From positions 1-34,934 of the IMG/VR virus record IMGVR_UViG_3300038441_000916: a DNA stretch of 34,934 bases; one strand, written 5' to 3'. This DNA is from a virus. The notes under the pieces are model-generated. The model saw only the letters and a program-made list of their open reading frames with translations. It ran no database searches and had not been told where the DNA came from. This document shows positions 1,601-34,042 of the stretch, piece after piece. The translations under genes and the position numbers were made by a program. How positions within the stretch are numbered: the first letter of the stretch is position 1; each line of letters begins with the position of its first letter.

Positions 1601-1631
1601 AAAGGCCAGGGTGAAATCACCCTGGCCTTTT
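1601..1631. terminator. Bidirectional intrinsic terminator
   Basis: A near-perfect inverted repeat (AAAGGCCAGGGTGA / TCACCCTGGCCTTT with a very short loop) lies between the ends of the plus-strand acb1-like gene and the minus-strand fibre gene. Each strand ends the stem in a T-rich run, so it can stop transcription from both sides. Confidence 0.85.
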
Positions 1632-1635
1632 CCAT

Positions 1636-2138
1636 TTAGAACGTCCCTTCGTTGATGTCTGGTAAGTCCGCTAACTCTAAAGCCCGGAATGTAGGATCCG
1701 CGTCTCCGCCTGATGCAGGTCCCATGTACATAGTATTGGCCCCAACTGGAACTACGGTAGCTGCAATAGCGTCATCCACATAAAGCTTATTGGCCCCATG
1801 AGTATCTTGGGTGGGCGTGTAATCTAGAGTTACTACGTCCTCGAAGGTTACGGGCCCTTGGCATTAACAGTCACAGATTTATATGTACCCGCACTGACTA
1901 TGCTTGGTAGCGTAACGTTTACGGCCGAGGTTGTACCGCTACCAGACACGTCCCCAGTTACAGTCAAAGGCATGGATCGAGGTTTGGGCTGTACTACGTC
2001 CCCACTACTATTCTTTATGAATAAAAGCTCGTCTGCCGAGTTGATAAATAGTTGCCCATTTCCTATTTGTTCAGATAAGGGCACTCTCCCAGGCACTATT
2101 GAATTACCATGTATTACCTTCTTTCCACTTAAAGCCAT
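1636..2138 (-). CDS. Small tail-fibre protein read through a -1 frameshift
   Basis: The first frame starts at ATG 2138 after a good AGAGGAC ribosome site and runs 96 codons to a TAA at 1848-1850. Its N-terminus (MALSGKK, then GQLFINSADELLFIKNSSG) is paralogous to the gene at 8743-9135, and it goes on into SGSGTT and SVTVNAKG, a motif usually followed by xVT in phage fibres. Exactly there the minus strand reads G GGC CCG TAA. A -1 slip on the heptamer gives GGG CCC GTA ACC, that is KG-P-VT, and opens about 70 more fibre-like codons (YVDDAIAA, MYMGPASGGDADPTFRALEL) to a TAA at 1636-1638, making about 167 residues. The shifted end is DINEGTF, matching DIDEGTYT and DEGTYA of two neighbouring genes. 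It may be programmed frameshifting, a recent mutation or a sequence error. Confidence 0.65.
1851..1857 (-). other. Candidate -1 frameshift slippery heptamer
   Basis: On the minus strand the codons are AAG GGC CCG TAA. The heptamer G_GGC_CCG has the X_XXY_YYZ form that allows both tRNAs to re-pair one base back, and the zero-frame stop follows immediately. I see no strong downstream pseudoknot or upstream Shine-Dalgarno-like stimulator, which weakens the case for a programmed event. Confidence 0.45.
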
Positions 2139-2188: not shown

Positions 2189-2212
2189 AAAGGCTGGGAA
2201 TTCCCAGCCTTT
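2189..2212 (-). terminator. Perfect-palindrome terminator of the adhesin operon
   Basis: A 24-base perfect palindrome (AAAGGCTGGGAA followed by its complement) begins three bases after the stop of the 704-residue adhesin gene, which ends at 2215. On the minus strand the stem ends in TTTCTC, a moderate T-run. It closes the long minus-strand transcript, so the fibre gene at 2138 may depend on read-through or its own promoter. Confidence 0.75.
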
Positions 2213-2214
2213 AC

Positions 2215-4329
2215 CTATTGCACCTTGATGTAGGGCACCATACCACTGGCTATTGGACCTAGCAGGGGTAAGTTGAACTTTGTTGCATCTGGTTCAAGCA
2301 GTTTGGCAGTCTGTGTGTAGTTGGAAGCCAGAACTGGCATTACGCCACCACCATAAGCTGCACAAGACCAAGTATTACTCTCATTGGTAAAGCTTACGGT
2401 TGTCCAGGTTCTACCATCAGCAGACACAGCTGCCACATCGTTGTTACCAAACATCCAGAATCGAGAGCCGTCCCAAGCTATTGAAGTCCAAGTGGAACTG
2501 ATGGGCAATGTGATAATATCCCAAACTGTACCGTCTTGAGACACAGCACACGTATTACCTGTTTTAATAGCCACAAAAACAGTACCATTCCAAGTTAGAC
2601 CCACCCAGCTACCTGTTGGAATTGTTCTCTGAGTCCAAGCGATTCCATTTGTGGACGTGAAACATATATTGTTACCTACAATACAGAACACACTGCCGTT
2701 CCATTCTATGGCATTACATACGGCGATGACTGGTAGAGTTCTACCTGTCCAGGATGTGCCGTTAGTGGACGTGGCATAGTTAGTTGTCGATGTCAGAGCT
2801 ACGGCAACGAATATACCATTACCGTAGGCAACACTGGACCAGGCTTGAGATACACCTAGAGAACCAGATGACCACGAAGTACCGTTAGTGGACGTGAACA
2901 CTGCATTAGATACAGCGCCTCCACCTATAGCACAGAATATAGTGCCGTTCCATATGATCTTTGCCAAGCTTGCTGCTGATGGAAGCGTTCTCTGAGTCCA
3001 CGTAATACCATCCGGACTAGTAGCATACGCATTGGTGGTACCTACAGATACAGAGGTCTGAACCGCACAAAATAGAGACCCATTCCAGGCCACTGATCCC
3101 CAACGACCAATCTTTATATCGAAATTCGCCGCTGTCCAGGTGGTTCCATTCGTGGACGTAGCTCCAGCAGTGGTATTGTAGGCCTTACAGTAGAACACCG
3201 TGCCGTTCCAGGCTACTGTTTGCCACTGTGCCGATGATGGCATACTGGCCGTAGACCACGTAATTCCGTCAGGAGACGTAAGTACCAACGTAGTACCAGC
3301 CACACATACGAATATAGAGCCGTTCCATATGATAGTATTGGATCCACCTGCGGCACCAACAGATGAAGTTGCCGCACCCCAGTTTACGCCATCACTAGAA
3401 TAAAGAAACGATGCGGTTGCTGTACTAGATACAGCAAATACAGTACCGTTCCAAGCTATTCCTGGACGTGTGGCGCTCGTTGCAAAAGTTCTGGATGTCC
3501 ACGTAATGCCATCCGGACTCGTCATGTAAGTATTGGTAGCGACGCTCGATACAACACAAAACAAACCGAGAGACGTAGCCCACGCTACATTGTTCCACGA
3601 ACCAGATATAATAACCTGTTGAGTCCAGGTAGCACCGTTGTCATCACTTGTTGCGCCAATAGTACTGGCAGATACTAAAGCGATTAATCTACCTGAATTG
3701 TTTGAACCAACTACAGTCCAGTTGCCGGCTGCTGGCAGTGTTCTAGCAGTCCACGTAATACCGTCAGGGGACGTAATACATTGATTGCCACTATTTGGCA
3801 CTGCACAAAACACACTACCGTTCCATGTGATACACCGAAATGGAACATCAACAGGTGGCCGTATTACAGTCCAACTGGTTCCATTAGTGGAATATGCTAT
3901 CAGTGAAGGTGCAGCCACGCACACAGCAGCAAACATAGAACCACTAGCAGCTATAGACGAGAAAGCCACGGCACTCTGTGTACCAGCCATAGGTATAGAG
4001 GTAGGTGTCAGACTATCTTCTGTTATTACATCCGACAAGTCTGGATAGGCTGATCTTAATTGAGCGGATCCATCACAAACCAGATAGTCTTCTTCTGGAG
4101 TCAGTACGCCGCTAGGTGCGTCGATAATGATACCGACAGGCATACCCTCTGTAGTGCCTGTCAAAGCTAAAGTTACGTCACCAGTACCGCTGTCAGCACC
4201 AGTACTACTCGTAATCTCAACTCCGTCACCTGCTATTAGCCTACGAATTACAGACTTACCTTCAGTTGAGACATTGAATTTGCTTTTGGGCAGTACCGAT
4301 AACTGTTGACCAGTATATTCTGTTTTCAT
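2215..4329 (-). CDS. Tail adhesin with 13 Asp-box repeats
   Basis: This 704-residue protein has three parts. The N-terminal module holds IRRLIAGDGVEI and GADSGTGDV, shared with the next two genes upstream. A tail-collar-like segment follows (PVGIIIDAPSGVL, then YLVCDGSAQLRSAYPDL). The rest is an array of about 45-residue repeats of the type WNGTVFCAV, then TSPDGITWT. The SxDGxTW element is an Asp-box-like (BNR) motif; I count 13. Such arrays form beta-propellers, as in sialidases, but I see no catalytic sialidase residues, so glycan binding is more likely than hydrolysis. The start overlaps the previous stop (TAATG). It is the last gene before the 2189-2212 terminator. Role inferred: host-surface recognition. 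Confidence 0.8.
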   Translation of the reverse strand: MKTEYTGQQLSVLPKSKFNVSTEGKSVIRRLIAGDGVEITSSTGADSGTGDVTLALTGTTEGMPVGIIIDAPSGVLTPEEDYLVCDGSAQLRSAYPDLSDVITEDSLTPTSIPMAGTQSAVAFSSIAASGSMFAAVCVAAPSLIAYSTNGTSWTVIRPPVDVPFRCITWNGSVFCAVPNSGNQCITSPDGITWTARTLPAAGNWTVVGSNNSGRLIALVSASTIGATSDDNGATWTQQVIISGSWNNVAWATSLGLFCVVSSVATNTYMTSPDGITWTSRTFATSATRPGIAWNGTVFAVSSTATASFLYSSDGVNWGAATSSVGAAGGSNTIIWNGSIFVCVAGTTLVLTSPDGITWSTASMPSSAQWQTVAWNGTVFYCKAYNTTAGATSTNGTTWTAANFDIKIGRWGSVAWNGSLFCAVQTSVSVGTTNAYATSPDGITWTQRTLPSAASLAKIIWNGTIFCAIGGGAVSNAVFTSTNGTSWSSGSLGVSQAWSSVAYGNGIFVAVALTSTTNYATSTNGTSWTGRTLPVIAVCNAIEWNGSVFCIVGNNICFTSTNGIAWTQRTIPTGSWVGLTWNGTVFVAIKTGNTCAVSQDGTVWDIITLPISSTWTSIAWDGSRFWMFGNNDVAAVSADGRTWTTVSFTNESNTWSCAAYGGGVMPVLASNYTQTAKLLEPDATKFNLPLLGPIASGMVPYIKVQ

Positions 4330-7300
4330 TACTCATCCCATCGTACTTGAGGTGGAAAATTAAGGTCTCTTGGTATGATATAGGGTACATCGAAGCTTGT
4401 GGCATCTTCATTTATAGCTATAGAGACACCACCCATGTCCCCTACTATACATAAGGCACTGCCATTGGAGCCCACACCTATACTGCTATGGGTGGCAGCA
4501 CTTACAAGCCTAGGCTTCCAGTTTATACCATCAGCACTCGTAGCATATCGCGTTCCATTTGCAGCCGCTATACAGAACACACTGCCATTCCATGTGATAG
4601 CTTGCCAGTCAACGCTATCAGGTAGGGTAACGGTGGTCCAGTTAGCACCGTTAGTCGAGATAGCTGCTACATTACCTGCAGCTATGGCACAGAACACACT
4701 GCCATTCCAGGCTATGTCTCTCCAAAATAGTGATATCGGCATGGTTTGAAGTGTCCACGTAATACCGTCAGGGGACGTGGCTGCTACGTTAGAGGAGGTT
4801 GCTGCACCACCTACTGCACAGAACACAGTACCATTCCAGGCTATAGCAGCCCAGTTAGAGGCTCCCATACTACGAACTGTCCACGTAGCGCCATCAGATG
4901 ACGTATAAGCTGAGGAGGTGTTACCTATTATGCAGAATATAGAGCCGTTCCACACTATATCAGTCCACGTAGCGCTCCCACCCAGAGTTCTTCCTGTCCA
5001 CGTAATACCATCAGGACTTGTAATAACGTCTGTGCTACCGCCGACAGCGCAGAACAAACCGCCGCCGTATGTAATAGCAGCCCAGTTAGACGTCCAAGGC
5101 ATTATTTGTTGGGTCCACGTAATACCATCCGTGGATGTTGCTGCTCGCGTAGAATTAGGTGACAGAGCACAGAAGATAGTACCAGTGCCAACTATAGGTT
5201 TCCACGAAAGTATTCCAGAGGCAGCAATCTCTCTATTGGTCCAATTAATACCATCAGTAGACGTACCGGCTGTATAGGGTGAGGTAGAGAACGCACAGAA
5301 TACAGTTCCGTCCCATGTCAGGGCTCTAAATGGAGCACGGCTTGACATAACCGACGCAGTCCACGTAGCGCCATGATCAAGACTGTAGGCACCTACACTA
5401 GCAGTAGTAGCAGCCGTAGCAACTACAAGCCCACTACCGTTAGAAGCGAGATTGGTCCACGTTGAGGATCCTGGCATCGTTCTCTGGGTCCACGTTGATC
5501 CATTTGGAGACGTGGCAGCGATAGACGAGTTTGAACCTACAGCACAGAATAAACTACCAGTCCACGTAAGACCTTGCCAGTTCGTACTTACCGGCATAGC
5601 CTGTGTGGTCCAAGTAGCTCCATCGGGAGACGTAGCTGCAATGCTGCTGGCATTGGCTATGGCACAGAACACAGTTCCGTTCCAAGCTATTCTAAACCAA
5701 GTTGCTGATGAAGATATGGTTCTAGCTGTCCACGTAGCTCCATCTGGAGATGTTGCAGCAACTGAAGAAGCTCCTGAATAACCAGCTACTGCACAAAAGA
5801 CAGTGCCGTTCCAGGCTACTGATGCCCAGTTTTGAGAAGAGGGCATCGTTCTGGACGTCCAGGTAATACCATCTGGGCTTGTATAAGCAGCGCTGCTATT
5901 CTGAAGAATGACCAAAAATACGGTACCGTTCCAAGCAGCGGCTTGAATACTACCTGACCAAGGCGCTGTTCTGGATGTCCACGTAGAGCCGTGATCAGAG
6001 CTAGTGGCATACGTATTACCACCACTTGTGAACCCCAAAATAATGCTGCTATTACTTACCGCAGCCGAATAGTTTAAGGTCAGAGGAATCGTAGAATCAA
6101 TCGTTGATGTCTGATTTACGTAAGAATTCTCTGGTGTAATGGCAGACAAGAGAGGGTAAGTCGACCTAAGTTTGGTAGAGCCATCGCAGGCCAAATACTT
6201 GAGGGGATCTAATTCGGCAGCCATACATATCTGGCCCACAGCTACCGTAGAACTCATCCCCCATACCGTTACATCGCCAGTTCCACTATCAGCTCCTGTA
6301 CTGGTTAATGCTATCCCAGGTCCGGCCATAACTCGTCTAATTACTGCTTGTCCTGGTGTGGACATATTCAAGTTAGACCGCTCTATACCCTCGTCTTTGA
6401 ATTGCTCATCATTCAGTATAGTATTCATAATGCCTGTATTAGAACTGGATAATAGGCTGCCTGCTGAGGTATATTAGGCAGGTAGAACTTTGAGTTATCT
6501 TCGATTCCTCTGATTACTTGAGCTGTTGTGCTACTAGTTACAGCGCAAAATGTGGTTCCTCCAGATATTGCTCCGACTGAAGTCCATGCATTAGCTGTAT
6601 TGATATCATATGAGGTCCAAGTAGCACCATGATCCCTACTTATAGCACTTGTTCTCGAACTACTAGATAAGGCCCACAGAAGATTAGAGTTGCCAGCTAT
6701 TGTTGCCCATGTTGTGAAAATGGGCAGTGTTCTAGCAGTCCACGTAATACCGTCAGGGGACGTGGCTGCTATAGCCGTACCGGAGCCGCTTGTACCACTC
6801 GCTACCGCACAGAATACAGTACCATCCCAAACAACGTCTAACCACAACAAAGCAGCAGGCATGGTTCTAGCGGTCCACGTAATACCGTCAGTAGAGGTTG
6901 CAGCAACATTGCTACCTGCTGATGTTCCAGATATCGCACAAAACACAGTGCCGTTCCAAGCAATAGCGCGCCATTGTTGGGTAGTCGGCAGTGTTCTAGC
7001 TGTCCAACTAAGACCATTGGTGGAGGTTGCAGCAACAGTGCCGTTAGCAGACGAAATGGCACAAAACACAGTGCCGTTCCAGGCTATATCAAACCAGCCG
7101 GAAGACACCGGCATGGTACCTGTACTCCACGTAATTCCATCAGACGACGTGGCTACTAGGTTACCACCTGTTACCACCGCACAAAATATAGACCCATTAG
7201 ACGTAATTGCATTCCAAGGGTTTGCGGTTGTTGGCATTGTTCGGGTGGTCCACGTAATACCATCCGGGGATGTAGCCGCCGTGTTGTTTGCTCCATTGAT

Positions 7301-7340
7301 GGCACAGAAAACCGTACCGTTCCAAGCAACATTAGACCAG
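2400..7340. repeat. Coding repeat array of the adhesin paralogues
   Basis: Across three adjacent genes a unit of about 130-140 bases recurs, seen on the plus strand as blocks such as GTGCCGTTCCA, TCCACGTAATACCATC and GCACAGAACAC. The repeats are in frame with the Asp-box protein repeats and are therefore coding, but at DNA level they form substrates for homologous recombination. They also produce long antisense open frames with no independent support. Confidence 0.8.
4329..6428 (-). CDS. Tail adhesin with 13 Asp-box repeats, paralogue
   Basis: This 699-residue paralogue has the same plan as the gene at 2215-4329. An N-terminal module has AVIRRVMAGPGIAL and GADSGTGDV. A collar-like stretch (YLACDGSTKLRSTYPLL) leads to 13 SPDGITWT-type Asp-box repeats alternating with AWNGTVFCAV strands, and a short unique C-terminus ending in VRWDE. 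The repeat count suggests two stacked propellers of six or seven blades. The ATG overlaps the stop of the upstream adhesin gene (ATGA), showing translational coupling. The high similarity within and between the paralogues would favour recombination, either changing repeat number or swapping tips. No enzyme active site is recognisable. Confidence 0.8.
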   Translation of the reverse strand: MNTILNDEQFKDEGIERSNLNMSTPGQAVIRRVMAGPGIALTSTGADSGTGDVTVWGMSSTVAVGQICMAAELDPLKYLACDGSTKLRSTYPLLSAITPENSYVNQTSTIDSTIPLTLNYSAAVSNSSIILGFTSGGNTYATSSDHGSTWTSRTAPWSGSIQAAAWNGTVFLVILQNSSAAYTSPDGITWTSRTMPSSQNWASVAWNGTVFCAVAGYSGASSVAATSPDGATWTARTISSSATWFRIAWNGTVFCAIANASSIAATSPDGATWTTQAMPVSTNWQGLTWTGSLFCAVGSNSSIAATSPNGSTWTQRTMPGSSTWTNLASNGSGLVVATAATTASVGAYSLDHGATWTASVMSSRAPFRALTWDGTVFCAFSTSPYTAGTSTDGINWTNREIAASGILSWKPIVGTGTIFCALSPNSTRAATSTDGITWTQQIMPWTSNWAAITYGGGLFCAVGGSTDVITSPDGITWTGRTLGGSATWTDIVWNGSIFCIIGNTSSAYTSSDGATWTVRSMGASNWAAIAWNGTVFCAVGGAATSSNVAATSPDGITWTLQTMPISLFWRDIAWNGSVFCAIAAGNVAAISTNGANWTTVTLPDSVDWQAITWNGSVFCIAAANGTRYATSADGINWKPRLVSAATHSSIGVGSNGSALCIVGDMGGVSIAINEDATSFDVPYIIPRDLNFPPQVRWDE

Positions 7341-7690
7341 TTCTGTGTGGTACCCAGCATAGAACCAGCTGTTGGCTGAAATACAGTAGTGGGAAAAAGG
7401 GTGGCCAACTGTGGATAGTCGGCCACCTCTTTAACTGATCCATCACACTCTAAGAATGAGGGACCCAACACGCCGGACCGGGCTTCAACTAATTGACCAA
7501 CATTACCACCACTGTTTGCCACGCTAATGTTTACATCACCGGTCCCGGAATCCACACCCATGCTATTGAGTTGGATTCCTGTGCCGGCTATTAAACGTCT
7601 AATCATAGCACTACCCGGGGTAGTGGCATCCACCAAATCCCGGGTAATCGCCTCGTCTTTTACTTGACTACCAGTCCCTTGTGTAAGCAT
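6425..7690 (-). CDS. Tail adhesin with about 6 Asp-box repeats, paralogue
   Basis: This 421-residue protein is the short member of the adhesin family. It keeps the N-terminal signature (MIRRLIAGTGIQL, GVDSGTGDV), the collar-like FLECDGSVKEVADYPQL and then about six Asp-box repeats (SPDGITWTTRTMP and similar) alternating with WNGTVFCAI strands. Six repeats would make a single six-bladed propeller, against 13 in the two genes that follow it. It ends in YYPVLIQAL, with a stop-start overlap into the next adhesin. The upstream ribosome site is weak (AAGTGATGACGTAAA), so it may depend on coupling to the gene at 7700-8740. Confidence 0.8.
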   Translation of the reverse strand: MLTQGTGSQVKDEAITRDLVDATTPGSAMIRRLIAGTGIQLNSMGVDSGTGDVNISVANSGGNVGQLVEARSGVLGPSFLECDGSVKEVADYPQLATLFPTTVFQPTAGSMLGTTQNWSNVAWNGTVFCAINGANNTAATSPDGITWTTRTMPTTANPWNAITSNGSIFCAVVTGGNLVATSSDGITWSTGTMPVSSGWFDIAWNGTVFCAISSANGTVAATSTNGLSWTARTLPTTQQWRAIAWNGTVFCAISGTSAGSNVAATSTDGITWTARTMPAALLWLDVVWDGTVFCAVASGTSGSGTAIAATSPDGITWTARTLPIFTTWATIAGNSNLLWALSSSSRTSAISRDHGATWTSYDINTANAWTSVGAISGGTTFCAVTSSTTAQVIRGIEDNSKFYLPNIPQQAAYYPVLIQAL

Positions 7691-8742: not shown

Positions 8743-9135
8743 TTATTCACTCCTAAAGTAATTGAAGATTACAACATCGCCCACCATTAAGCTCAATGTG
8801 GAGGGCAGAATTACCGTCTGACCTGACAAACTATAGGATGCAGACGACTGAGCTAATCCATTTATAAATAGACTATGACCATCCGAGTTCATAGGATTGG
8901 GTACGTTAATCGTATTTGCACCAGCACTTGTGATGGTCTGTTCTATAGTGTCTGGTACACCGCCTCCACCGCCATTGCGCTGAAAGCCTACAATTACACC
9001 GCTGCTATTCTTGATGTACAAGACCTCATCAGCGGTGTTAATGAATATCTGACCATCCAGCATCTGACCAGCATCTGGAGCTTCCCCTGATACGCTGGTC
9101 CTACCGTGTTGAAGCTTTCTTCCAGTTAGTGCCAT
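8743..9135 (-). CDS. Small tail-fibre-associated protein
   Basis: This 130-residue protein starts behind a GAGAGG site. Its N-terminal half (MALTGRKLQHG, DGQIFINTADEVLYIKNSSG) is paralogous to the frameshifted gene at 1636-2138. After a GGGGG linker the C-terminal half (INVPNPMNSDGHSLFINGL, then VGDVVIFNYFRSE) looks like a small beta domain. It ends two bases before the ATG of the 346-residue fibre gene. The INTADEVLYIK motif is common at the N-termini of phage fibre and baseplate-wedge proteins, so it may form a connector or fibre base. Assignment as structural is good; detailed function unknown. Confidence 0.65.
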   Translation of the reverse strand: MALTGRKLQHGRTSVSGEAPDAGQMLDGQIFINTADEVLYIKNSSGVIVGFQRNGGGGGVPDTIEQTITSAGANTINVPNPMNSDGHSLFINGLAQSSASYSLSGQTVILPSTLSLMVGDVVIFNYFRSE

Positions 9136-9233: not shown

Positions 9234-9560
9234 CTAAGCATATGTTCCTTCGTCTAGAAGATCATCAAGATCGCCCCAGTCACCGTCCATTCGAACATAA
9301 GGTTTACCGTCTATAGGGGCCTCTGGTATACCTGATGTTGTATCAGCAATCCACGTTGTGAGGTCTGCTTGTAGTATGTAGGTAGTATCGTTCTCTAAAA
9401 CACGACAAGCCATGCCTGCCGTTCTTCGGGCTGCTGGCAACGCATTACGGGCCACCAACGTAGCTGCTTCATGCCACCCACCTTTACCGTAGGTCGAGAA
9501 GTGGGTAGGGAAATCCTGATTGTTCTTTGGTGCTATATGGGTTATAAGGAAGATGGGCAT
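9234..9560 (-). CDS. Small fibre-cluster protein with EGTYA end
   Basis: This 108-residue protein starts behind AGGAGCGTGAG and sits two bases after the 231-residue gene. The first half (FSTYGKGGWHEAATLVARNALPAARR) is helical and unfamiliar. The second half (MACRVLENDTTYILQ, then IDGKPYVRMDGDWGDL) has the look of a C-terminal segment often seen in phage tail or baseplate accessory proteins. It ends DDLLDEGTYA, a motif shared with the ends of the genes at 12420-12929 and 1636-2138. Role inferred only: a virion or fibre-assembly component. Confidence 0.6.
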   Translation of the reverse strand: MPIFLITHIAPKNNQDFPTHFSTYGKGGWHEAATLVARNALPAARRTAGMACRVLENDTTYILQADLTTWIADTTSGIPEAPIDGKPYVRMDGDWGDLDDLLDEGTYA

Positions 9561-10479: not shown

Positions 10480-12423
10480 TTATTGAATAGCAAAGAAGTA
10501 ATATGTTTCACCACTATTATTGATCGGTGAACCACCTCCCGGTTGTAGCAAAGTGAAACCCGCACTGTCTCGTGCTAACAGGGGATCACCTCCAACTTGA
10601 GCCCCATTAGTATCGGCCAACAGATAAGGTGTTGTTGCACCTCCCATCCCTCTATTCTTATTAAATATGTACCAATGACCTGTTAATGCGCTCTTTATTA
10701 TAACCCATCGGGCACCAATGGAGAAATCACAGTCAATATCCTGTTGTGCAGCAGTGCCGACGTAGGAGCCTGATTTAGAGTCAGGCCCATCTGAAAATAC
10801 ATACAGTATGTAAGGTTCACCCACAGCATTGACCGCACTGCTGGTACCTACTCCGAAGGTTGTACTTGTGTGAGTACCCCATACAGTAACATCGTTAGTC
10901 ACTGGATCATCTGTATCCAACGTCAGATAGTTAGCGCTGCCTAGCGCTCCAAAATATACACATAGACTGGTTGGCATCTCAAGTGCTTTGGCTATAGCAA
11001 ACGTAGGTAAAGACTCTAATATGTGAGCCAAATTCTGAGCACTACCGGTGCCTTCATACGGTACTATGTCGAAGAACTCGGCGCCTATTTTAAAACTCTC
11101 AGCATCGAACTCCTCACCTACCGCGTTCACATCAACGCTAGATCCTAAGGTGAAACCGGGTCCGTTAGAGGCAAAGCTATTATTGAAAGCCGTAAGACCA
11201 TCGTTGTCTTCGTCCTGAGCAGCAGGTGCAATCAGCAGCTTGTAGTTACCATATAGTTCCTTTCGTACTGTATCCCAGAGTGTATGAGGTGTGGTAGCCG
11301 TATAGCTTTTTATCCACACTAAACCTCCACCCTTTAGTGCCTGCAGGATACCCATTGTGTACACAGTAGTAGAGCCCGATATTACCGTTTGGACCAATAC
11401 GAACCGGCCACCACCATACGCCATAGACGGATAAAGAAAGCCTGTGGGTAGTCCTGTCGTCTTGGGGGTCCAAGTAGCACCGCCATCGTAGGACACTGCG
11501 CTCTCTATTACGTTACCTACAGCCGATGATCTATTGGTGGCTACAAATATACCTGCGCCATAAGCTATGGCCAAGCTAGCCGACGAGAATGTAGTACCTA
11601 CATTGTTGAAAATGATTACTGGCGAGGACCATGTAACACCGTCAGCAGAAGTTCTACACACGCCCCGGTTGCTCGCATCTCTATAGAGGACTATAAACAA
11701 GCCAGAGCCAAAAGCCGCATCAAAGAACGTTCCGGTCAAAGAAGTTGTCGACCACGAGGAGCCATTGTTAGACGTAACGGCTACATTGAACAAACCTGAG
11801 CCGAAAGCAAGGACCAGAAACTTCCCATTACCGAATACAACACGACCAGGGGATACGCCTACTGCTGGTCTAGTAACGGGAGTCCAAGTTATGGTATCTG
11901 TGGATATAGCAGCTATAGTTGCACTGATAATGAAGAACGTATTGTTCCCAAAACCAACGTTCTTCCATATCGAGTTCGTTACGGTCCTCAAAGTCCACGT
12001 AATCCCGTCTGGGGAAGTAGCAACTCTATTGTGATTAGCAGCAGACAACCCTTGAGATACGGCAACAAACAAACCGTTGCCAAAGCATATGTCCGCCCAA
12101 TATCCTACACCTGACTGTATGATATTAGAATTCCAGGTTACACCGTCAGAGGATACTCCAGCGTAATCCTGTACATTACCGTTGGTTACCGCAACAAACT
12201 TCCCACTACCATAGGCAACTCGATTGAAGCCCACACTAAATGGGCTAGCAGAGCTTGTTCTTGGTGCCAAGGTTGTAGACGATTGCCAAGACCCCACATT
12301 GGTATCGAAGTCCAGCCCTGTTTTCAGCGTTTGGGAACTACCAGTCCCAGGGAACAGATTAACCCTGAATAGCCGGTTTAGTACGTTCCCTCCTGCTGAC
12401 ATGAACTTCTTTAGGAGACTCAT
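10480..12423 (-). CDS. Tail adhesin: Asp-box propeller plus C-terminal beta domain
   Basis: This 647-residue protein starts at an ATG overlapping the upstream stop (ATGA). Residues about 40-360 hold roughly six Asp-box-like repeats (SSDGVTWNS, SPDGITWTL, NNGSSWST, SADGVTWSS, DGGATWTP) alternating with VAYGSGKFVAV strands, enough for one six-bladed propeller. The C-terminal 270 residues begin GGGLVWIKSYTATTPHTLWDTV. They contain two GFTLGS/TSSAVNAVGE-type copies and end WHIFNKNRG-like (HWYIFNKNRGMGG) and ETYYFFAIQ, a domain I recognise from phage and phage-like proteins usually annotated as a domain of unknown function. It differs from the other three adhesins in its N-terminus. Role inferred: host binding. 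Confidence 0.75.
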   Translation of the reverse strand: MSLLKKFMSAGGNVLNRLFRVNLFPGTGSSQTLKTGLDFDTNVGSWQSSTTLAPRTSSASPFSVGFNRVAYGSGKFVAVTNGNVQDYAGVSSDGVTWNSNIIQSGVGYWADICFGNGLFVAVSQGLSAANHNRVATSPDGITWTLRTVTNSIWKNVGFGNNTFFIISATIAAISTDTITWTPVTRPAVGVSPGRVVFGNGKFLVLAFGSGLFNVAVTSNNGSSWSTTSLTGTFFDAAFGSGLFIVLYRDASNRGVCRTSADGVTWSSPVIIFNNVGTTFSSASLAIAYGAGIFVATNRSSAVGNVIESAVSYDGGATWTPKTTGLPTGFLYPSMAYGGGRFVLVQTVISGSTTVYTMGILQALKGGGLVWIKSYTATTPHTLWDTVRKELYGNYKLLIAPAAQDEDNDGLTAFNNSFASNGPGFTLGSSVDVNAVGEEFDAESFKIGAEFFDIVPYEGTGSAQNLAHILESLPTFAIAKALEMPTSLCVYFGALGSANYLTLDTDDPVTNDVTVWGTHTSTTFGVGTSSAVNAVGEPYILYVFSDGPDSKSGSYVGTAAQQDIDCDFSIGARWVIIKSALTGHWYIFNKNRGMGGATTPYLLADTNGAQVGGDPLLARDSAGFTLLQPGGGSPINNSGETYYFFAIQ

Positions 12424-12929
12424 GTGTAAGTACCTTCATCTATATCAGAGGGTGTGCTTATGATTATCGAAGATCCTGAGCTGTTGACTGTTATATTGGA
12501 CCCCGCTGCAATACTCACTGATCCTGTTTTGCCATTGACTGCGGACACTCCACCACCAGCGCTACCTACTCTGCGAACCCCATATACATTGGGGCCTGCT
12601 TCCAACGTCAGCGTGTTAGCCAACACGCCGTTTCTGTACACTGTACCATCGGTAAGCTCTATGTCTTCGGACAGATCAAAGTAGATTGCTATATCATCGC
12701 CCTTGATGATCGATTCGCTTATGTTCACCAAAGGTATAACAAAACGCCACGTACCATTATCCAATACGTACATGCCACCTGGGAGGTTACCTATGTCGCG
12801 GGTCAATACATAGGCAGCTGTTATCTCACTAGGTGAAGGAACCGAATCAGAGAAAGGTGCAATGACCTGACCTTCAGATTCATTCTGAGTCAACGCTATG
12901 GGATAGTAAAAGTTAGCCACGTTATTCAA
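12420..12929 (-). CDS. Small fibre-cluster protein with DEGTYT end
   Basis: The frame is 169 residues from a TTG at 12929; a GTG at 12920 has better spacing from AAGG and may be the real start. The N-terminal two thirds is beta-rich (FYYPIALTQNESEGQVIAPF, ITAAYVLTRDIGNLPGGMYV). It ends in AVNGKTGSVSI, a linker repeated in many phage fibres, then ITVNSSGSSIIIS and the terminal SDIDEGTYT. That terminal motif is shared with two other small fibre proteins in this window. It overlaps the endolysin gene by eight bases and the adhesin gene by four. Probably a virion protein of the fibre network. Confidence 0.65.
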   Translation of the reverse strand: MNNVANFYYPIALTQNESEGQVIAPFSDSVPSPSEITAAYVLTRDIGNLPGGMYVLDNGTWRFVIPLVNISESIIKGDDIAIYFDLSEDIELTDGTVYRNGVLANTLTLEAGPNVYGVRRVGSAGGGVSAVNGKTGSVSIAAGSNITVNSSGSSIIISTPSDIDEGTYT

Positions 12930-15057: not shown

Positions 15058-15911
15058 AAATACTCGCCATTGATGGTAACTGGTACCTTCACAGACGGTG
15101 GTTCACGCTGAAGACTAGCCGTTCTATTGAAGAAGCTTTGCCCTATGCATTCCTAAGCATGATCATGAAGGACGCTTGTGCAGTGAAGGCTACCCATTTG
15201 TTGGTTGGCTTTGACGGTCCTTCCGTGTTCAGGTATAAGGTATATAAGGAATATAAGGGCACACGTCACAAGAATACTGAAGGCGGGGATACTGAGGATA
15301 GCAGTAAGGAAATTTATTCATACTTGCCTGCTGTACAGCGGTATCTAGAAAGCGCAGGGATTGCGTGGATACAGCCAAAGAAGTATGAAGCCGACGATGT
15401 TCTAGCCTCGGTGGCTAAACAATTCGGGAGGGGGAAGGCTAAAGTTATACTTGGCTGCCGGGATAAAGACACTTACCAAGTACTGGGCCCCAGGGTCTCT
15501 ATTTATGATTCTGCATTGGACCCGCCTGAATACATCGAGGTGGCCACAGCAGAAGCCAAGAAGGGTGTTAAGTGCTCACAGATGGTAGCGTTTCAAACGC
15601 TGATAGGTGATCCCACAGACAACATACCTCAGTATAAGACACCAAGTGAGGCTAAGAAAATACTTAAGACCTGGGGGTCGATCAAGAATTGGTACGCTAA
15701 TGGAACCCGAGAAGAAAAGCTGTGGCTAAAGACACACCACGTCGATCTACATATAAACAGGCAGCTCGTAGAGTTGGTATCCAATCTAGAGCTGCCTGAG
15801 CTTCAAGAACTTGTGGTCCCTAAGCTTAAGAAAACAAACATGCCAAAATACTGGTATGCTTATCAGGACTTCCTATATCCAAAGTCTAGAGGGCTTTTTA
15901 GAGCACCCTAG
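15054..15911 (+). CDS. 5'-3' exonuclease, FEN / Pol I N-terminal family
   Basis: This 285-residue protein carries the acidic metal-binding residues of the FEN family in order: D7 (LAIDGNW), D54 in VGFDGPSVFRYKVYKEYKGT, the YEADD motif (E112, D114, D115), D137/D139 in GCRDKDTYQVL, and D186/D189 in GDPTDNIP. The family removes RNA primers and 5' flaps during lagging-strand synthesis, as T4 RNase H and the T5/T7 exonucleases do. The GDPTDNIP region is part of the helix-hairpin-helix-like DNA-binding element. There is no polymerase domain. The 3' end overlaps the convergent tail-fibre gene by 14 bases, and no terminator lies between. Confidence 0.9.
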   Translation: MKILAIDGNWYLHRRWFTLKTSRSIEEALPYAFLSMIMKDACAVKATHLLVGFDGPSVFRYKVYKEYKGTRHKNTEGGDTEDSSKEIYSYLPAVQRYLESAGIAWIQPKKYEADDVLASVAKQFGRGKAKVILGCRDKDTYQVLGPRVSIYDSALDPPEYIEVATAEAKKGVKCSQMVAFQTLIGDPTDNIPQYKTPSEAKKILKTWGSIKNWYANGTREEKLWLKTHHVDLHINRQLVELVSNLELPELQELVVPKLKKTNMPKYWYAYQDFLYPKSRGLFRAP

Positions 15912-32979: not shown

Positions 32980-33282
32980 TCATTTGTCCAAGAAATAGAC
33001 TCGTATGTAACCATCACATACGAATATCTCTATTTCATACTTGGATTCGAGTGCAGACAACAACCGGGAGAGAACAAGCAACCCCTGCGGCTTGACTATT
33101 GATTCCCGAGACATAGTGGATTTTCCACGAGGCCTGAACGTTATACGGACAGGACCAGTCTTGGTCTCCTCTATGTCGAAACCACTTTGTGCGATCTTTT
33201 TGACCACATTCTGGATATGTGTGTCTTCTATTTCGCTTAGACCAGAGTCGGCCTGAAGCCGGGTCGCTGCGTTAACCTTCAT
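32980..33282 (-). CDS. NAATRL-leader protein (a)
   Basis: I start at ATG 33282 (AAGGAGAAGCAA upstream), giving 100 residues rather than 110. The N-terminus MKVNAATRLQAD is shared with the two genes that precede it on this strand, while the rest (IQNVVKKIAQSGFDIEE, VRITFRPRGKS, EIEIFVCDGYIRVYFL) differs. The leader and ribosome site are nearly identical in DNA to those at 34021-34053. Shared short N-termini on different bodies recall capsid-targeting leaders of T4 internal head proteins; that role is inferred. Confidence 0.65.
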   Translation of the reverse strand: MKVNAATRLQADSGLSEIEDTHIQNVVKKIAQSGFDIEETKTGPVRITFRPRGKSTMSRESIVKPQGLLVLSRLLSALESKYEIEIFVCDGYIRVYFLDK

Positions 33283-33293
33283 TTGCTTCTCCT
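33261..33293 (+). repeat. Direct repeat copy 1, ribosome site plus leader
   Basis: This 33-base block matches 34021-34053 at 29 of 33 bases. It spans the ribosome site, start codon and first codons of the minus-strand NAATRL protein (a). Confidence 0.75.
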
Positions 33294-33661
33294 TAAAGAG
33301 GGAATTTATCAAACAGAGCTGCGATGCTGGTCAACCCCTCTGGCCCACCAGCTTTAATCTGTTTGGCTATGCTATGCCTATTGATCTTCAAGCTGCCCTT
33401 CAATTGCTTTAGAAAGTCATTTAGATCAGTCGCATAAAATCCGAAGTTATAGATGTCCAGGTCCGAGCTACGGAAATGAAGCTCAAAATATAGCTCGCCC
33501 TCGTTCCGTAGCTCAGCATTCCACAGTGGACCTGACCATTGTATGGACTTGTTGGCTACTTTGCCTCGCCCAAGAGCCTTACACAGGAGTTTGATTACCT
33601 GCTTTAGGTCCTCTATAGAAGCAGCCACCAACCTAGCAGCCGCATTGATTCGAGTACCCAT
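33293..33661 (-). CDS. NAATRL-leader protein (b)
   Basis: This 122-residue protein begins MGTRINAAARLVAASIEDL, a looser copy of the NAATRL leader of its neighbours. The body (LWNAELRNEGELYFELHFRS, DIYNFGFYATDLNDFLKQL) is an alpha/beta domain of unknown family. No good ribosome site is seen. Same possible leader role as its neighbours; its divergence suggests an older duplication. Confidence 0.65.
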   Translation of the reverse strand: MGTRINAAARLVAASIEDLKQVIKLLCKALGRGKVANKSIQWSGPLWNAELRNEGELYFELHFRSSDLDIYNFGFYATDLNDFLKQLKGSLKINRHSIAKQIKAGGPEGLTSIAALFDKFPL

Positions 33662-33670
33662 GATTAATCA

Positions 33671-34042
33671 CTAGAGCTGGTCTCTGAAGAATTTCTTACA
33701 GCCACTATATTTAGTAACTGGGCCATCTATAACAATGATGTCAGAATGTGGAATAAACTGTATGTGAAGACCAACATTTTCTGAATAGGGGGCAATGATA
33801 TAGGTAGCACGTTTTGAGACTTCCAAGTCAAAGAACCGGGGATCAACTGCCTCCTTTATCGTAGCTATTTTATCTTTGATACTTGCTGGAGTGATTGCCA
33901 ACTTTGCAGTGACAAGCCAGCTACCATCCTCTATTGAGATATTCTTTGCCCCTATTCCTAATTCATCGAGGATCTTAAGAACGTCTCGTTTAGAAAGGTT
34001 ATTAATAGCGGCCGCCAACCGAGTTGCTGCGTTAAGTTTCAT
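33671..34042 (-). CDS. NAATRL-leader protein (c)
   Basis: This 123-residue protein begins MKLNAATRLAAAINNLSKRD with AGGAGAAGCAA upstream, almost the same start region as the gene at 32980-33282. The rest (LKILDELGIGAKNISIEDGS, DPRFFDLEVSKRATYIIAPY) is alpha/beta and unfamiliar. It is the next gene after the tail tube on this strand, so a virion role is likely. Confidence 0.65.
   Translation of the reverse strand: MKLNAATRLAAAINNLSKRDVLKILDELGIGAKNISIEDGSWLVTAKLAITPASIKDKIATIKEAVDPRFFDLEVSKRATYIIAPYSENVGLHIQFIPHSDIIVIDGPVTKYSGCKKFFRDQL

Follow-up and report, generated by a model that had tools for sequence, protein, structure and literature searches.

A small tail-fibre gene interrupted at a GGGCCCG heptamer in a viral contig, probably by a recent single-base length change

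A small tail-fibre gene on the minus strand of the analysed viral DNA (IMG/VR record IMGVR_UViG_3300038441_000916; the whole stretch of 34,934 nucleotides is referred to as the window) is divided over two reading frames, and the most probable explanation, to which we assign a probability of roughly three in four, is that a short G/C-rich stretch recently gained or lost one base, which broke a formerly continuous gene. This reading is preferred because both halves show coding signal and homology, three assemblies share the break, and distant module homologues are unbroken. We infer the direction and the recency of the mutation, as well as the loss of the C-terminal half, and the ancestral state would be read from module homologues of ~30-65% identity, not from the whole gene. 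In the proposed course of events, a modular tail-fibre/adaptor gene of ~167 codons would have been hit by a one-base length change within a stretch of 13 bases, such that the 0 frame would come to stop at codon 97, the protein would be cut to 96 aa, and the C-terminal module with its terminal peptide would be lost. The heptamer at the break, G_GGC_CCG, would then be a by-product of encoding the K-G-P stretch of the module.

Two halves of one fibre gene

The original prediction had described a frame that reads AAG GGC CCG TAA, a heptamer that fits the X_XXY_YYZ rule with the stop directly behind it, and a -1 frame that goes on as fibre sequence for about 70 codons, and all of this was confirmed: the 0 frame ends in these codons after 96 codons (ORF 2138-1848), the heptamer (1857-1851) lies in the proper phase, and the continuation comprises 71 codons, down to position 1636 (Table 1). 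Bounded by a -1-frame TAA at 1866-1864 and a 0-frame TAA at 1850-1848, the frame change is confined to 1863-1851; from 1863 onward the -1 frame is open up to its stop at 1638-1636. The break falls exactly between two residues of a conserved A-K-G-x-V-T motif, with no residue gained or lost, and the two halves together span ~167 codons.

Table 1. Sequence features at and around the frame break
Feature	Coordinates	Strand	Basis
ORF of 96 aa before the break: virion adaptor-like segment at the N-terminus (aa 1-55), then fibre module TGDVSGSGTT...TYKSVTVNAKG	1848..2138	-	phrog_5181, E 1e-5
Heptamer G_GGC_CCG, abutting the 0-frame stop	1851..1857	-	sequence
0-frame stop TAA	1848..1850	-	sequence
Sole 13-base stretch able to hold the change into the -1 frame	1851..1863	-	bounded by two stops
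Continuation of 71 codons in the -1 frame, with its stop; contains YVDDAIAA and PTFRALELADLP segments and ends in DINEGTF	1636..1851	-	fibre-like homology, codon usage
Inverted repeat (hairpin) between convergent genes	1601..1630	.	opposite-strand self-match, 93% over 30 nt; terminator-like by position
Perfect inverted repeat between the broken gene and the upstream gene 2215-4329	2189..2212	.	opposite-strand matches in two sister contigs

Both halves carry a coding signal. When codon usage was compared with that of the other genes in the window, the upstream part scored +11.5 in the 0 frame and strongly negative in the other sense frames, and the 71 downstream codons yielded a log-likelihood of +11.7 in the -1 frame, the two remaining sense frames scoring -26.8 and -24.3. 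No additional decay is seen in the -1 frame, as would be expected of a recent event but also of a frame that is still translated. Re-initiation as a means to translate the downstream frame was considered and is unlikely: the first ATG, GTG or TTG in that frame is the GTG at 1779, ~70 bases past the 0-frame stop, and no clear ribosome-binding site precedes it, so that coupling is improbable.

By tblastn and PHROG matches, all of them modest, the encoded product is a modular tail-fibre protein; Pfam returned no match for it. Residues 1-55 are similar to the N-terminus of the protein encoded at 8743-9135 of the same virus (27/54 residues identical, 50%), and the start of the tail-fibre family PHROG 10316 was matched both by that 130-aa protein (E 4.5e-6) and by the read-through protein (E 4.7e-5). 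Next follows the module TGDVSGSGTT...GTYKSVTVNAKGxVT, which is widespread in the fibre-like proteins that many viral contigs encode, and then YVDDAIAA and the PTFRALELADLP segments; the 71 aa of the downstream part run VTFEDVV...YVDDAIAA...GPASGGDADPTFRALELADLPDINEGTF. The C-terminus DINEGTF had been put forward as a motif shared with two neighbouring proteins. Two other proteins indeed end alike, namely DIDEGTYT (12420-12929) and DLLDEGTYA (9234-9560), but the ends are similar rather than identical and the genes lie 7-11 kb away. The likeness speaks for an authentic C-terminus in the downstream frame. Homology, codon usage and this C-terminal peptide together suggest that both halves once formed a single fibre protein, in line with the earlier supposition of two halves of one former gene. 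Where the protein sits in the virion, and whether the form of 96 aa would still function, we infer rather than observe. The ends LLDEGTYA, DIDEGTYT and DINEGTF (1636-1659, minus strand) close three otherwise unrelated proteins and may represent a C-terminal docking tag that the three have in common; such ends were not found at the other loci inspected.

Several neighbouring genes were recorded as well. On the plus strand, 1087-1593 encodes a protein of 168 aa with a match to the anti-CBASS family Acb1 (Pfam PF23474, E 8e-19) and two H-x-T motifs (HCT and HIT), the family being labelled RNA ligase by PHROG; this gene is directly convergent with the broken fibre gene. The hairpin between the two was not called by a scan for T-run terminators, and scans for Rfam families, tRNAs, promoters and terminators returned nothing. 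On the minus strand, 2215-7690 encodes three tandem large proteins with repeats like WNGTVFCAV...SPDGITWT, which match DUF6242 (the third below the curated cut-off); probably, duplication has produced a set of beta-propeller-like fibre or receptor-binding proteins here.

Conservation of the break

An identical break is present in two more IMG/VR contigs, 3300028809_000078 and 3300028590_000052, with 100% identity around it. Aligned with the window, they show a single SNP (at 15800) in 18,103 bases and no SNP in 14,661 bases, and since their ends differ they are separate contigs. The three records represent approximately the same virus and provide no evolutionary test; the break would be fixed or common in the virus population. 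Because three assemblies carry the same break, a one-off sequence error is an unlikely cause. More generally, a sequencing or assembly error that conceals an intact gene is quite improbable: breaks of a single base frequently turn out to be errors in metagenome contigs, and the sister contigs may stem from related samples or a shared co-assembly, but the same bases occur in records with different ends, one of them with the SNP, and the runs (three G, three C) are short for indel errors of short reads. Contig 3300028590_000052 continues ~23 kb past base 1 of the window, and the window continues ~20 kb past the other end of that contig, which implies a virus genome of at least ~58 kb, of which the window is a fragment.

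In more distant viral contigs, 37 copies of the V-T-V-N-A-K-G-x-V-T module were recovered, which are homologues of the module (~30-65% identity) and not orthologues of the whole gene. Every copy lies in a single uninterrupted frame, A-K-G-x-V-T or a close variant being followed by at least 92 open codons (37/37), and the heptamer is missing from all 37. A search over the full length of 20 of these contigs gave 30 matches, distributed over 11 records, with not a single internal stop. Queries against the viral contigs comprised the upstream and downstream parts, the N-terminal alignment and the neighbouring proteins; closer relatives with an intact gene were found neither among phages (DNA and protein) nor among viral or genome contigs, and a degenerate pattern for the uninterrupted form of the exact peptide retrieved no relative beyond the two near-identical contigs. 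The proposed check, whether relatives conserve both frames and the heptamer, came out negative among the module homologues compared, as the heptamer is common only to the near-identical contigs. Frame transitions that homologues do not share are usually read as errors or recent mutations (PMC3711429).

The heptamer as a candidate slippery site

The principal alternative, favoured by the original prediction, is programmed -1 ribosomal frameshifting on G_GGC_CCG, giving a major form of 96 aa and a minor one of 167 aa. It can account for an X_XXY_YYZ heptamer in the right phase, inside the only possible 13-base stretch and with a stop directly after it, for a shifted product without a missing residue, and for a break that is stable across three assemblies. 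In a survey of all 64 heptamers in E. coli (PMC4066793), however, CCN codons are less shift-prone, as are ZZN codons that mix purine and pyrimidine and X/Z pairs of unlike type, and G_GG.C_CC.A is among three motifs that not even the IS3 pseudoknot lifted above threshold. Judged by its class and by this sister motif, G_GGC_CCG would be on the poor side of each rule, the rules being those of E. coli and maybe not those of the host. Nor was a stimulator found: the downstream RNA folded no better than shuffled sequences (z from -0.9 to +0.6, in folding without pseudoknots), and no Shine-Dalgarno-like sequence lies 10-15 nt upstream of the heptamer. Together with the absence of the heptamer from the 37 one-frame module copies, this renders frameshifting unlikely, and it is the fallback of the original prediction, a copy that mutated recently, that gains support.

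The heptamer itself calls for little explanation. GGGCCCG is not enriched in the window (one observed, 2.9 expected in shuffles), and in-phase heptamers occur at 0.2% of its codons (21/10,555), which over four or five possible positions makes a heptamer at the break a ~1% event a priori. Given K-G-P, however, the codon usage of the window yields the heptamer with a probability of ~0.19, i.e. about one time in five. Indels are favoured at runs of identical bases, and with this codon choice the coincidence is therefore modest.

A selected truncation in which the 96-aa form alone functions, or a reversible on/off switching at the G/C runs with both states coexisting, is very unlikely, for although the N-terminal adaptor is still intact and the paralogous N-terminus at 8743-9135 is joined to another, short C-terminal part, runs of three are atypical as phase-variation tracts, a single state is seen in 3/3 records, and the stop lies midway through a module.

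Comparison with known systems

Programmed -1 frameshifting is familiar from the tail assembly chaperones (lambda G/GT type; Pakpunavirus), with which the present gene shares a common N-terminus for a short and a potential long form, and a slippery-type motif that closes the short frame. Unlike them, the protein is not a chaperone by homology, its gene is not beside the tail tube gene, and the motif is made of G and C only, at an unconserved site where no stimulator was found. A small literature search turned up frameshifting in tail assembly chaperones (PMC12846349) but no frameshifting fibre gene. The genes behind the tail tube (32980-34042), considered as a chaperone frameshift control, could not serve as one, being small paralogues without a PHROG match; these three consecutive minus-strand genes encode proteins that share an N-terminus like MK[LV]NAATRL (MGTRINAAARL in the middle one). 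That a G/C-only heptamer, normally a poor one, yields short and long fibre forms differing by a C-terminal module with a docking-type end peptide is, in our estimation, distinctly improbable; if true, frameshifting here would enlarge the small set of recoded virion genes by fibre proteins whose length is controlled at a docking peptide.

The preferred reading, a recent mutation, places the gene with the frame-disrupted (pseudogenised or truncated) fibre genes of phages, which are likewise modular, keep two recognisable halves in separate frames, and are broken at a short run; an intact close relative that would prove the direction of change was not found here. The broken fibre gene is real but ordinary, and it advises caution: when the motif class is poor and relatives are unbroken, an X_XXY_YYZ heptamer where a frame breaks counts for little as evidence of programmed frameshifting.
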